This document shows positions 16,351 through 21,952 of a stretch of 64,000 bases of DNA, one piece after another. The position numbers and the translations under genes were made by a program. Under the pieces are notes generated by a model. That model saw nothing but the letters and a program-made list of their open reading frames with translations, did no database searches and was not told the origin of the DNA. This DNA is from an uncultured Chloroflexota bacterium. GTDB taxonomy: Bacteria > Chloroflexota > Dehalococcoidia > GIF9 > AB-539-J10. The first letter of the stretch is position 1; each line of letters starts with the position of its first letter. The DNA is taken from positions 1 to 64,000 of the forward strand of contig CAISEW010000041.1 of the NCBI GenBank assembly GCA_903884455.1, written 5' to 3'.

Positions 16351-16620
16351 TTAGTTTTGGCCTGAGGTCGGCTTAAATTTATCCATAATGCCTAGTTTGC
16401 CGAGCAAGCTGCGCACCGTATCTGTAGGCTGAGCTCCATATCTAAGCCACTTTAAAGCTTTTTCTTCATTAATGCTGATAGTTGCGGGGTCAGTCAAAGG
16501 ATTGTAATGGCCTATAATATCAATGAATTTACCATCACGGGGAGAGCGAATATCGGCTACTACCACTCGGTAGAATGGTCTGTTTCTCCTCCCCATACGG
16601 CGTAATCTGATTTTAACCAT
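16351..16620 (-). CDS. rpsP: 30S ribosomal protein S16
   Basis: [43 protein letters not shown]. Confidence 0.98.
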
Positions 16621-16830
16621 TTAATTAAGGTGATTATCTCTTAAATGTCAATGTTTGTCAATGGCTTTTGGCTTAGAGGGCATAATTTATTCAACCCCAA
16701 AAAGTCTTGCGACTTTAGCAAGGTTAGTTGTGGTTTATATATCCTAATCCTTCTTTCCTCGCATGTAACCGGCATATTAAGCGCTTTTGATATGACATTG
16801 ATGATTTGGTTAAGTTAACTCTTAGTTGTT

Positions 16831-17826
16831 TCATTTTCTCACCATAACCACTGATGCAGATGGCTCTATCAATCTCTTTCTGGCTCGGCTTCTCCGAGTA
16901 GCCTTCCTAAAATATGCAGCCCGCTTCTGCTTCTCGGTATGTGGTCTGTGGCTAGGTCTGAGTTTTATAAACTTAAACCTAGCAGTTTCGGCAACATCAG
17001 AATGTCTTACCACATCGTTCCAATCTGCAAATGGCATCTCTATCTTCATATGTTTGGCTGGTGATACATTGTCTAGGGATTCGTGGTCTTTGAAGAAGTT
17101 ATAGTGTATTAGCCAGCCTTCGGTTAATAATCTGGCAGTTTCCAAATCCTTGAAGTGGCGAATCACATTTGTCCGTTGCTTTAGCGTACCCTGAAACCGC
17201 TCTATCAGACTGGTGCTGTTCTCGTCTGTGAACGGATAACTTTGAATATGCCTTACCCTACCACCGCTTGCCAAATCAATGCCGTCAATATAAGCTCGCA
17301 GTTTATCGGTGATTATTTTCTCTGGCATTTTGCCAGCCCTTTTGATTGCTTTCTCAATGAGTATCTGAGCATCTTCGGTTGTTCTAGTGGCTGATATGTG
17401 AGATGCCAGCAAGTACCTTGATTTCGCATCTATGACATCCCAAAACCAGACATTGCGATTCCCCACGTTTACTCCAGTCTCATTGGCAAGCCAGACATTG
17501 CCTACTTTCGGTTTGAAATCCTTTGCCTTTACAATAGCCTCTTTGGTGAATCGTACTATCCATTTATAGATTGCTGGCTCTGATAAATGCTTGTCGTACT
17601 CTTGCTTTAGCTGTGTTTGTATGGCATCAATAGGCATACCGCCATAGTACATATTGAGCACAGAGCCTATCTCGTTAATAGGTGTTTTCATCTTAGGTAA
17701 GGTGTCTAGCTCTGTAAACTTACGCTGGCAATCTTTACACCAGTAACGCTGGATGCCCTGAAAAGTGCCAAACTTAATTATGTTCGGTGATTGACAGTAT
17801 TTGCATATCGGCTGCTCATTTTCCAT
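16831..17826 (-). CDS. DDE transposase with N-terminal zinc ribbon (IS6/IS240-like fold)
   Basis: CKYCQSPNIIKFGTFQGIQRYWCKDCQRKF zinc ribbon; WFWDVIDAKSRYLLASHIS, IITDKLRAYIDGI, TSLIERFQGTLKQRTNVIRHF. ORF opens at 17844; MENEQ start 17826 overlaps the upstream ORF stop. Confidence 0.88.
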   Translation of the reverse strand: MENEQPICKYCQSPNIIKFGTFQGIQRYWCKDCQRKFTELDTLPKMKTPINEIGSVLNMYYGGMPIDAIQTQLKQEYDKHLSEPAIYKWIVRFTKEAIVKAKDFKPKVGNVWLANETGVNVGNRNVWFWDVIDAKSRYLLASHISATRTTEDAQILIEKAIKRAGKMPEKIITDKLRAYIDGIDLASGGRVRHIQSYPFTDENSTSLIERFQGTLKQRTNVIRHFKDLETARLLTEGWLIHYNFFKDHESLDNVSPAKHMKIEMPFADWNDVVRHSDVAETARFKFIKLRPSHRPHTEKQKRAAYFRKATRRSRARKRLIEPSASVVMVRK

Positions 17827-18433
17827 GTCTAGCCTCTCTATCATTCCTTATCTCCTCAACCAGCTTCTCGATGCTCTTTGTTAATCGGCTTATGTCTTCA
17901 CTGTTTTGCTTGGCGTTGTCACTTAATGCCTTGTTGCTCGCAATCAACTTATCTAGTTTTGCGTTTATATCTCTTTCGAAACGTACTTCGTGGCTATGCT
18001 GATATATTTTCCAGTACATCCAAATGACAAATATCACCGTTAATGCTATGTAGTACTGCATATGAGTTCTCGAATCCAAATCCAATAGCTGCCAAAAACT
18101 GTATTGCGGGTAGGTCTGACCATACTCCTGAATAGCTTGCAATCTCTGAACAAGTGTGACCAATGCGTAGCCGTAAAATACAGGGTCAATAAGAACGATG
18201 GCGGTAGATTCCCACCACCACACAGCGGATACTTTGTGCCTATTCCACCATTCTTGGCGTCTCTGACGAAGGCGAATAAAGAATCCACGTTGGGATAACC
18301 ATTTGTAGAACATCGTGCCAAGCTTGTAAACAAGCGAAAAGAAACCAAAGAACACGGCTGCAAAGCCCAACGTGATAAGTATGAGCATAAGGGCGCCAAG
18401 AATGACGTTTGGAATATTGATGCCCGATTCCAT
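17816..18433 (-). CDS. Membrane protein with C-terminal coiled coil, passenger ORF inside the IS-like element
   Basis: N-terminal TM LGALMLILITLGFAAVFFGFFSLVY, second TM YIALTVIFVIWMYW, heptad-like tail; overlaps transposase start (ATGGAAAATGA). Confidence 0.75.
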   Translation of the reverse strand: MESGINIPNVILGALMLILITLGFAAVFFGFFSLVYKLGTMFYKWLSQRGFFIRLRQRRQEWWNRHKVSAVWWWESTAIVLIDPVFYGYALVTLVQRLQAIQEYGQTYPQYSFWQLLDLDSRTHMQYYIALTVIFVIWMYWKIYQHSHEVRFERDINAKLDKLIASNKALSDNAKQNSEDISRLTKSIEKLVEEIRNDREARHGK

Positions 18434-18480
18434 AATTCTATTTTAGCATCCTGCCAACCACGAGTATACTTAACCGATGA

Positions 18481-18509
18481 TTTACAATTAAAGTGGAATG
18501 CTTTATAAT
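18481..18509 (+). promoter_or_regulatory. Putative sigma70 promoter for leader ORF-hppA: TTTACA-17-TATAAT
   Basis: -35 TTTACA 18481-18486, -10 TATAAT 18504-18509; homologous to the region upstream of nfi. Confidence 0.5.
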
Positions 18510-18529
18510 CCAAGATTTATAATCAAGAT

Positions 18530-18688
18530 ATGAGAGTGCATGCATTACACGGGTGGGAGGTGCGCGTTGCCCGGGCAAGGGAAATACAATTGAGCCTGGC
18601 GAAAAAGGTGGTAACTGAAAACGAAGTTATTAACCTACCCCATTCTGTTGATGGTCAAGGGATGGCTCATCCCAGGAGGTTTAACTAA
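18530..18688 (+). pseudogene. Internally deleted nfi (endonuclease V) copy; in-frame 52-codon leader ORF overlapping the hppA start
   Basis: ATG AGA GTG CAT...TAA encodes MRVHALHGWEVRVARAREIQLSLAKKVVTENEVINLPHSVDGQGMAHPRRFN*, matching nfi N-terminus fused to its DGQGIAHPRR motif; TAATG overlap with hppA. Confidence 0.85.
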
Positions 18689-21000
18689 TGAATATAACAC
18701 TGTTTGAAGTCTTCCGTACTGGCGTTGCCACTGACTTTGAAAGGTATGCTTTAATCGCTGTCCTAGTAGTGGCTGTATGTGGTTTACTTTATGCCGCTTT
18801 TCTTAACCGCCAGATCATGAGGGAGCCGGAGGGGACGGAAAAAATGAAGCGTCTATCCATGGCTATCCGCACTGGCGGCAATGCTTATCTTAGGCGGCAG
18901 TTCCGCACTATACTCGTGATTTTCTTTGTCTTAGCAGTGTTTGTATTTTTCACCGGGTGGTTTTCTCCATCAAAATACAACCCCAACTGGGTTATCGGTC
19001 TGGGTCGCGCTGGTGGCTTCTTGATAGGTGCTCTATTCTCTGCCCTGGTAGGTTACCTGGGTATGAATATGGCGATGCGAGGCAATGTCAGGGTGGCTCA
19101 AGCTGCCCGCAGCAGTTTTGCCAAGGCTCTCAAGATAGGCTATCGCACCGGCACTGTAACCGGCATGCTCACCGACGGTCTTGGGCTTCTCGGTGGCACT
19201 GTACTCTTCATTATCTTCTTTAAGGATGCTCCCTTGGTGCTAATAGGCTTTGGTTTCGGCGGCACGCTACTTGCCCTGTTTATGCGTGTTGGTGGTGGCA
19301 TTTATACCAAAGCTGCTGATGTTGGGGCTGACCTGGTGGGTAAGGTAGAAAAGGGTATCCCTGAGGATGACCCCCGAAATGCCGCGGTGATTGCTGACCA
19401 GGTTGGCGATAACGTAGGTGACTGTGCCGGAATGGCAGCCGATATCTTTGAGTCTTACGAAGTTACCATTGTTGCTGCTTTAATCTTAGGGATTTTGCTA
19501 ACCATTGCCACTGGCGCCCTTTACTGGATTATCTTGCCGCTTTTGATACGGGCTTGCGGCGTTCTGGGTTCCATTATTAGCACCTATACGGTTGGGCGTG
19601 GTAAGGGGGAGAATGCGATGGATGCTATACACCGTGCTTACTGGCTCGGTGCGGCAATCACTTGTGTATCTGCCTTCCTTTTTGCCCATTTTTACTGCCA
19701 CGACCTTCGTTTCTTCTGGGTGATAATGATAGGTGTATTCTTAGCCATAGCCACAAACTATATCGCCGATTACTACACTGGAGACAGACATGCCCCAGTA
19801 AAGGAAATCGCCAAATCAACCAAAACTGGACCAGCTACTGTCATCCTCTCCGGGTTTGGCTGGGGATTTGAGAGCACTGTTATGGCTATACTTGCTATTG
19901 CATTAGCCATCTTAGGCTCAGCAATCGTGTGGCGGAATGGTATCCCCGGTTTCGACATGATATCAGGCATGCCAGCAAGTTTACTCTGCATATTCTACGG
20001 CGTAGCTCTTTGCGGCATTGGTCTACTTACCTTGACCGGCAACAATATTGCCATGGATACCTTTGGTCCCGTGGTTGATAATGCCAATGGCATCGGGGAA
20101 ATGGCAAAGCTCGAACCTGAGACTCGCCAGACTTTGAATGACCTGGATGCGGTAGGCAACACTACCAAGGCTATCACCAAGTGCATTGCTATCGCTTCGG
20201 CAGTCCTGGCAGCAGTGGCTCTATTTGCTGCCTTCTACGCCGACTATCAGCTTAAAACAATTGACTTAATTCAGTGGAAGGTCTTCGTTGCCTTCCTTAT
20301 CGGGGGTGCCATACCGTTTCTGTTCAGTTCTCTCACCATTAGAGCTGTGGGTAGAGCGGCACATGAGATTATAAATGAGGTGCGTTACCAGTTTGCCAAT
20401 GTTAAAGGAGTCTGGGAAGGCACAGTTGACCCTGACTATGCTAGGGTGGTTTCTATTTGCACTGGAGCGGCTCAGAGAGAGTTGATCACTCCGGCACTTT
20501 TGGCTGTCCTTTCACCCATAGCCATAGGCTTACTCCTTGGCCTGGAAGCGCTGGCAGGATTCCTGGCAGGGGTGATACTGGTGGGGCAACTCCTGGCAGT
20601 ATATATGGCAAATACGGGGAATGCCTGGGACAATGCCAAGAAGTCCATTGAAGACGGGTTATACGGTGGCAAAGGCTCCGAGGCGCACAAGGCAGCGGTG
20701 ATAGGCGATACCGTAGGTGACCCGCTTAAAGACACCGCCGGGCCAGCTTTGAACCCGCTGATTAAAGTCATTAACCTGGTTTCGGTCCTTGCTGCCGCAC
20801 TGATGGTGGTAGTAGTGAACGGTCAAATTGTGCCGCGGGGACTCACACCGGTTACCGTCAGCGTAGCGGTGGCAGCGATTATAGTCATACTTGTAGCCGT
20901 CTGGCGTTCGAGGAAAGAGGAATCCTTCGGTCGCGAATACGAAACAATGGAAGGGGTTTCCACAACGAATCCAGGAAAACAGGGCCCGCCCAACAAATGA
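18688..21000 (+). CDS. hppA: Membrane-bound proton-translocating pyrophosphatase
   Basis: DVGADLVGKVEKGIPEDDPRNAAVIADQVGDNVGDCAGMAADIFESY signature; ~15 TMs; GDTVGDPLKDTAGPALNPLIK. Confidence 0.97.
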   Translation: MNITLFEVFRTGVATDFERYALIAVLVVAVCGLLYAAFLNRQIMREPEGTEKMKRLSMAIRTGGNAYLRRQFRTILVIFFVLAVFVFFTGWFSPSKYNPNWVIGLGRAGGFLIGALFSALVGYLGMNMAMRGNVRVAQAARSSFAKALKIGYRTGTVTGMLTDGLGLLGGTVLFIIFFKDAPLVLIGFGFGGTLLALFMRVGGGIYTKAADVGADLVGKVEKGIPEDDPRNAAVIADQVGDNVGDCAGMAADIFESYEVTIVAALILGILLTIATGALYWIILPLLIRACGVLGSIISTYTVGRGKGENAMDAIHRAYWLGAAITCVSAFLFAHFYCHDLRFFWVIMIGVFLAIATNYIADYYTGDRHAPVKEIAKSTKTGPATVILSGFGWGFESTVMAILAIALAILGSAIVWRNGIPGFDMISGMPASLLCIFYGVALCGIGLLTLTGNNIAMDTFGPVVDNANGIGEMAKLEPETRQTLNDLDAVGNTTKAITKCIAIASAVLAAVALFAAFYADYQLKTIDLIQWKVFVAFLIGGAIPFLFSSLTIRAVGRAAHEIINEVRYQFANVKGVWEGTVDPDYARVVSICTGAAQRELITPALLAVLSPIAIGLLLGLEALAGFLAGVILVGQLLAVYMANTGNAWDNAKKSIEDGLYGGKGSEAHKAAVIGDTVGDPLKDTAGPALNPLIKVINLVSVLAAALMVVVVNGQIVPRGLTPVTVSVAVAAIIVILVAVWRSRKEESFGREYETMEGVSTTNPGKQGPPNK

Positions 21001-21215: not shown

Positions 21216-21243
21216 TTGTCATAAAGTAGCAATGCTTTATAAT
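21216..21243 (+). promoter_or_regulatory. Putative sigma70 promoter of nfi: TTGTCA-16-TATAAT, start codon 7 nt after -10 (possible leaderless mRNA)
   Basis: -35 TTGTCA 21216-21221; -10 TATAAT 21238-21243; ATG at 21251. Confidence 0.5.
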
Positions 21244-21250
21244 AAGCTGT

Positions 21251-21952
21251 ATGGTAGTGCACAAATTACACGACTGGGAGGTGAGCGTTGCCCGAGCGAG
21301 GGAAATACAATTGAGCCTGGCGAAAAGGGTGGTAACTGAAAACGAAGTTATTAACCCACACCTCGTTGCCGGTATTGACATATCTTCTCCTGATGCTCAG
21401 GGCGTAGCCAGAGGAGCAGTGGTAGTTCTCCGTTACCCCGAGTTTAGCATGGTCGAGGTAAAGGTAGTGGAAGGTAAGATTACATTTCCCTATATTCCTG
21501 GTCTATTGTCTTTTCGAGAAAGTCCCTTGATTCTGGCTGCCTGTGAAAAAATAAATAATACTCCCGACCTTATTCTGATTGATGGTCAAGGGATTGCTCA
21601 TCCCAGGAGATTGGGGCTCGCCTCACATGTGGGACTCTTTCTCGATTTGCCTACTATAGGCTGTGCAAAATCTATCCTTTGTGGCCAGCATCGGCCTGTG
21701 GGAGAAGAGGCTGGCTCTCATGCTGAACTGCTTGATAATGGGGAGCTTGTTGGAGCAGCGTTAAGGACTAAATCTGGAGTGAGGCCAATATATGTTTCTG
21801 TGGGTCATAAAATTGACCTGGCATCGGCTTTACAATGGGTGATAAAGTGCTGCCGTGGTTATAGACTTCCTGAACCTACCCGCTTGGCTCACCTTGCTGC
21901 CGGAGGAATGTTGACCTCCGAACCGAGCTGCCAAGGGAAATTATTTAATTAA
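21251..21952 (+). CDS. nfi: Endonuclease V
   Basis: VAGIDISSPDAQGVARGAVVVLRYPEF; DLILIDGQGIAHPRRLGLASHVGL; KSGVRPIYVSVGHKI. Confidence 0.95.
   Translation: MVVHKLHDWEVSVARAREIQLSLAKRVVTENEVINPHLVAGIDISSPDAQGVARGAVVVLRYPEFSMVEVKVVEGKITFPYIPGLLSFRESPLILAACEKINNTPDLILIDGQGIAHPRRLGLASHVGLFLDLPTIGCAKSILCGQHRPVGEEAGSHAELLDNGELVGAALRTKSGVRPIYVSVGHKIDLASALQWVIKCCRGYRLPEPTRLAHLAAGGMLTSEPSCQGKLFN

Follow-up and report, generated by a model that had tools for sequence, protein, structure and literature searches.

The 64,000-nucleotide stretch of uncultured Chloroflexota DNA analysed here (the window) carries, at positions 16808-18475, an element of 1668 bp that is defined by an 8-bp duplication, inverted ends and two overlapping minus-strand genes. 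The target-site duplication, GATGATTT, is exact over its 8 bp and flanks the element at 16800-16807 and 18476-18483. The terminal inverted repeats, GGTTAAGTTAACTC at the transposase 3' end (16808-16821) and GAGTATACTTAACC on the passenger side (18462-18475), are complementary at 12 of 14 positions. The first 16 nucleotides at the transposase 3' end are the same in this element, in a sister element of the same genome and in an element of genome G063. A 205-aa membrane protein, the passenger, is encoded at 17816-18433 and its start codon lies 42 bp from the passenger-side element end; the transposase gene (16831-17826) specifies 331 aa from an ATG that overlaps the upstream stop codon. This stop/start overlap, ATGGAAAATGA, spans 11 nt at 17816-17826 on the minus strand.

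An earlier note on this DNA had recognized the inverted ends and the exact direct repeat, and had interpreted the two overlapping frames as a complete, translationally coupled mobile unit. The coordinates and repeats stand as first noted, both genes lie inside the ends, and the overlap supports coupling of the membrane ORF, as part of the mobile unit, to the transposase. The ends and duplication cannot be attributed to chance, since the same search delimits, in related loci, 42 further credible elements whose ends match and whose 8-bp duplications are exact. The window element is a true small transposon, composed of a transposase and a membrane-protein gene. A gene other than the transposase that is enclosed by the ends and mobile with them, the hallmark of a passenger-carrying insertion sequence (tIS), was found in the window element and in relatives, one of which (L061) is a nested insertion, with its own 8-bp duplication, within the zinc-ribbon codons of another transposase.

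The surrounding region has been rearranged relative to congeneric genomes. Congeners (L168, L171) harbour a V/A-type ATPase operon of about 8.5 kb between the rpsP region and nfi; in the window (16620-21000) a membrane pyrophosphatase gene takes the place of this operon, and no more than 11 bp separate the element from the scar. A search of the window genome for the V/A-type A subunit gave no clear match, only F-type-like ones. Because the operon was lost at the window locus, leaving homologous flanks that are approximately 9 kb apart in relatives, comparison with the empty site in congeners is not clean. The nfi gene (endonuclease V) is partially duplicated around hppA, with a truncated 5' fragment ahead of the pyrophosphatase gene at 18530-18690 and an intact copy behind it at 21236-21952. 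One congener shows an independent insertion near the same locus: L037 (G024:C9), a related element with a different passenger, adjoins the rpsP-KH genes from the other side. A short intergenic stretch at 16684-16716, CAACCCCAAAAAGTCTTGCGACTT, has copies at numerous sites in congeneric genomes.

Transposase domains and catalytic residues

The earlier note had also described the product of the second gene as a zinc-ribbon DDE transposase of IS6 type. Its domain structure is as proposed: an N-terminal four-Cys zinc ribbon of the IS1/IS1595 type, encoded at 17710-17805 on the minus strand (NF050000, 44.7 bits, cut-off 28), is combined with an IS240/IS6-type DDE domain (PF13610, 58.6 bits, above the cut-off of 27). 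The family assignment is correct for the DDE core, which matches IS6/IS240, but does not extend to the whole protein, in that the full-length IS6 transposase model NF033587 yields 103.8 bits, under the curated NCBI cut-off of 125, and the N-terminus is that of IS1/IS1595. DDE_Tnp_IS1595 (PF12762) scores 13.6 bits, below its cut-off of 27. At the level of the element, two IS6 traits are present, namely the 8-bp target duplication and terminal inverted repeats of about 14 bp starting with GG (12/14); the third, a lone transposase ORF filling the element, is replaced by a two-gene arrangement with the additional gene of 205 aa. The transposase frame itself is open to 17844, beyond the overlapping ATG.

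Of 14 transposases aligned, 13 keep the first catalytic Asp, located in a WxADET motif; the exception is the window copy, in which the codon at 17482-17484 (minus strand) reads AAT and specifies Asn. When the comparison was broadened to the 90 of 105 surveyed transposases in which the motif could be located, Asp was found in 88, Asn only in the window copy and Ala in one decayed copy; the sister-element transposase retains the Asp. Given this replacement, the window copy is probably catalytically dead and would no longer be able to move by itself.

The membrane-gene slot and the exchange of its contents

The passenger (minus strand) is predicted to consist of two or three transmembrane (TM) helices and a C-terminal coiled coil. 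Our TM calls employ a simple hydropathy threshold, which places helices at residues 10-28 (18350-18406) and 77-95 (18149-18205), the latter within the part common to relatives L035 and L124. A likely third helix, at residues 127-145 (17999-18055), is below the threshold in the window copy and aligns with a TM segment of the L035 relative, while residues 149-203 (17825-17989) form a long helix or coiled coil in a structure model (pLDDT about 74). The protein has no significant family match in Pfam, NCBIfam, PHROG or PADLOC, and no anti-phage defence family of PADLOC or Pfam was matched. Fold searches with the window and sister passengers returned nothing below E = 6, the models having been built from only three and four sequences and that of the 205-aa protein reaching a pTM of only 0.33. 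Weak matches to histidine kinases and spanins arose through the coiled coil, and these identities were dropped; a plasmid or phage origin was rejected as well, as collections of plasmids and phages contained no match.

Two distant relatives of the 205-aa protein were recovered (L035, L124), both 5' of the same type of transposase, and a search through 394 genomes of the class yielded no further clear one. The relative in G063 resides in a 3768-bp element with the exact duplication TCCGCTGT, where approximately 1.4 kb with an antisense ORF lies between it and the transposase; the L124 relative is directly upstream of the transposase, on a contig binned as Patescibacteria. The window genome encodes one further copy of the transposase, 81% identical, within the sister element of 2021 bp, which has an exact duplication, AAAATCCA, and a right end identical over 16 nt to that of the window element. 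Its passenger is a membrane ORF of 152 aa, unrelated to the 205-aa protein and joined to the transposase by an ATGA overlap. The earlier note had supposed a conserved membrane passenger, and had named beforehand, as a finding that would speak against this, an element with the same transposase and ends and no 205-aa ORF; the sister element is precisely such a case. As it lacks the 205-aa gene, and as only two distant relatives were recovered, the conserved-passenger reading is rejected: although truly a passenger, the gene is not conserved.

To place this pair in context, 105 distinct transposases were assembled from a class search and a scan of a genome collection, the majority from metagenome-assembled genomes of Dehalococcoidia. 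Most sequences derive from metagenome bins, and host names for odd taxa are therefore uncertain. In bins assigned to archaea (Thermoplasmata, Methanomassiliicoccales) and to Ignavibacteriales (L144, L147, L148, L141), where binning errors are possible, related transposases are likewise immediately preceded by a TM ORF. The search for ends required a GG start, and all delimited relatives begin with GG; ends and 8-bp duplications were found for 44 elements, of which a doubtful one (L046) was dropped, leaving 43 including the window element. In two loci (L086, 1518-5104; L137, 752-3647), two different elements of the group adjoin and the same 8-bp duplication occurs three times, as if the later arrival had used the duplication of the earlier element as its precise target.

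Most of the 43 delimited elements contain a co-oriented gene 5' of the transposase; about 12 have no 5' ORF, and several of these possess small membrane ORFs on the 3' side. Counted once per element, with two possibly spurious ORFs (L035, L043) omitted, the 5' slot encodes TM segments in 28 of 29 cases. Among 5'-slot ORFs of at least 100 aa, a tally that includes these two and leaves out the L107 ORF, a frameshifted transposase fragment, 29 of 30 have TM segments, compared with 56 of 193 flanking ORFs (29%; Fisher p = 5e-13), 6 of 14 ORFs 3' of the transposase (p = 1e-4) and 43% of amino-acid-shuffled passengers. The 5' ORF ends no more than 30 nt from a transposase start in 25 of 28 elements, with 17 overlaps. 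Passenger frames are open for up to 446 aa, and most contain no recognized domain. Their architectures vary: the two-TM-plus-coiled-coil build of the window passenger is shared by L051, L053, L055 and L058, the sole TM segment in the delimited elements L072 and L092 is a C-terminal tail anchor, and L048 encodes an in-frame fusion of a TM hairpin with the transposase, within an element that has an exact 8-bp duplication.

The contents of the slot do not track transposase identity. Upstream ORFs are homologous in 3 of 42 transposase pairs of at least 70% identity, a count that includes loci without delimited ends, where some upstream ORFs may be host genes. Among delimited elements, the pairs window/L034 and L038/L040 have near-identical ends and transposase regions that agree at approximately 85% of nucleotides, and the genes lying between these are unrelated; unrelated passengers occur even beside transposases that are 80-94% identical, and homologous passengers are also found on transposases sharing only 38-55% identity. 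Of the five clear members of the sister-element passenger family (with L041, L042 and L055), four lie in these elements and one, L180, has no such transposase within 1.5 kb; the family of L055, L058 and L051 includes a weaker member, L185, also without such a transposase nearby. Two of the three passenger families tested are nearly confined to these elements. The slot and the membrane type of its product are conserved, and the sequence is exchanged.

Possible roles of the slot

The interpretation we prefer, and to which we assign roughly even chances, is that the slot holds interchangeable cargo of membrane effectors. The group consists of passenger-carrying insertion sequences with a zinc-ribbon IS6-like transposase, in which a fixed slot between the left end and the transposase accepts one membrane-anchored gene, coupled to that of the transposase, and the contents of the slot are swapped while the ends and transposase are kept. 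Such cargo might consist of small membrane effectors that help the element or host, for instance in resisting phages or rival mobile elements. The sequences themselves show the element boundaries, the two-gene unit, the membrane bias and the exchange; expression from the end of the element and the effector role are what we infer here. Because passengers are exchanged without co-varying with the transposase, cargo is a better fit than a dedicated partner. By association, cargo on the 3' side of related elements points to defence or competition: a HEPN AbiU2 protein (PF18734, 37.3 bits, cut-off 26.8), a three-TM protein weakly resembling PycTM and, inside the delimited elements L119 and L120, DNA methyltransferase-like ORFs of 415 aa and 471 aa. 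As most passengers have no recognized domain, the defence reading rests on few neighbours, and the lack of a family or solved-fold match for the 205-aa protein counts against cargo. Purely opportunistic cargo, moreover, does not explain the near-constant membrane anchoring of the 5' slot, nor would a freely recruited pool predict passenger families so nearly confined to these elements.

A second reading, favoured by near-universal TM segments in the 5' slot only and by translational coupling, makes the 5' gene an accessory of transposition, a tether or regulator in the membrane that would keep the transposase, or the DNA being moved, in place there. The in-frame fusion in L048, bounded by an exact 8-bp duplication, and the N-terminal extension with signal peptide in IS6 clade VIII transposases (PMC6807381) are in keeping with this proposal, which is doubtful but deserves serious attention: the L048 fusion is a single case in 105 transposases, about 12 of the 43 delimited elements manage without a 5' ORF, and a specific protein contact cannot be general when passengers beside 80-94% identical transposases are unrelated. 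It is also conceivable, but in our view unlikely, that these insertion sequences depend throughout the class on membrane anchoring as such, any membrane protein just ahead of, or fused to, the transposase confining transposition to the membrane, so that the slot would be functionally obligatory and its sequence free. One could also imagine that a membrane protein encoded first on the shared mRNA brings transposase synthesis to the membrane co-translationally, damping or localizing transposition irrespective of protein sequence. This would explain together why the slot favours TM segments, tolerates any sequence and sits in a coupled position 5' of the transposase, but in at least two delimited elements (L072, L092) the only TM segment is a tail anchor, which emerges too late; we hold the idea to be quite improbable. 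Similarly small is the likelihood that passengers are addiction or toxin-like membrane proteins stabilizing the element in its host, for despite their small size and the two-TM-plus-coiled-coil build of the window, L051, L053, L055 and L058 proteins, neither an antitoxin gene nor an antisense RNA was identified, many of the elements occur only once, and the family libraries matched no known toxin family. Least credible, and in our view very improbable, is that the ORFs are remnants without function, trapped inside the element; most passengers do lack a recognized domain and the window transposase lacks a catalytic residue, yet frames remain open for up to 446 aa, homologous passenger families span distant elements, and the TM bias is far above that of neighbouring and shuffled ORFs.

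Comparison with known elements and features of the left ends

A single IS6-family member with a passenger gene, ISDsp3 from Dehalococcoides sp. BAV1, has been reported (PMC7986276); it measures 1456 bp, has no intact zinc finger (PMC6807381) and its passenger is only called hypothetical. By its published description, on which our comparison is based, ISDsp3 shares with the window group an IS6-like transposase, an extra ORF and the bacterial class, but is one element, whereas the window group comprises many with a fixed, exchangeable membrane slot. IS6 clade h/VII (ISCpe7 and relatives) likewise unites a zinc-finger N-terminus with an IS6-like DDE core in a long transposase, although these elements are from Clostridia and have no described passenger gene, in contrast to the passenger-bearing group of Dehalococcoidia. 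Clade i/VIII (ISTet2, ISHahy6, ISHco2) has a zinc finger and a further N-terminal extension of 100 aa bearing a signal peptide (PMC6807381), reminiscent of the L048 fusion; the extension is fused within a single ORF there, whereas the window group has a separate gene that can be exchanged. IS1595 elements resemble the window transposase in the N-terminal zinc-ribbon type (NF050000 spans IS1 and IS1595) and differ in the DDE domain, which in the window is IS240/IS6-like rather than DDE_Tnp_IS1595. Tn3-family transposons with toxin-antitoxin passengers (PMC7157771) resemble the window group in having accessory genes, which are described there as integral to the transposition module; they differ in transposase family and in their toxin-antitoxin pairs, the window group having single membrane proteins and no identified antitoxin.

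We found no description of a group-wide exchangeable membrane slot in the literature searched, subscription journals and ISfinder being outside the search. One IS6-family passenger element, ISDsp3, was already reported, and the group-wide slot appears new relative to the literature found. IS6-family elements have been treated as transposase-only with one reported exception, and most members of a related zinc-ribbon group carry a membrane gene in a slot that is fixed in place and exchangeable in content. Should this be cargo, the elements form an extremely compact cassette system and supply uncharacterized membrane effectors; should it be an accessory, bacterial transposition would be linked to the membrane.

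A conserved GGTTG at about positions 17-21 of the ends could serve as a -35-like box; as only 10 of 43 left ends reach 9 of 12 consensus matches in a promoter scan, we do not claim promoter function. Perfect stems of 8-12 bp lie just inside the left ends of L047, L049, L058, L062, L063, L069, L070 and L137, near a putative -10 box and the start codon. Stems average 5.6 bp in left ends versus 4.6 bp in shuffled sequences, with no excess in right ends. In IS10 and IS50, element ends are protected from read-through translation, and the left-end stems may possibly provide similar protection.
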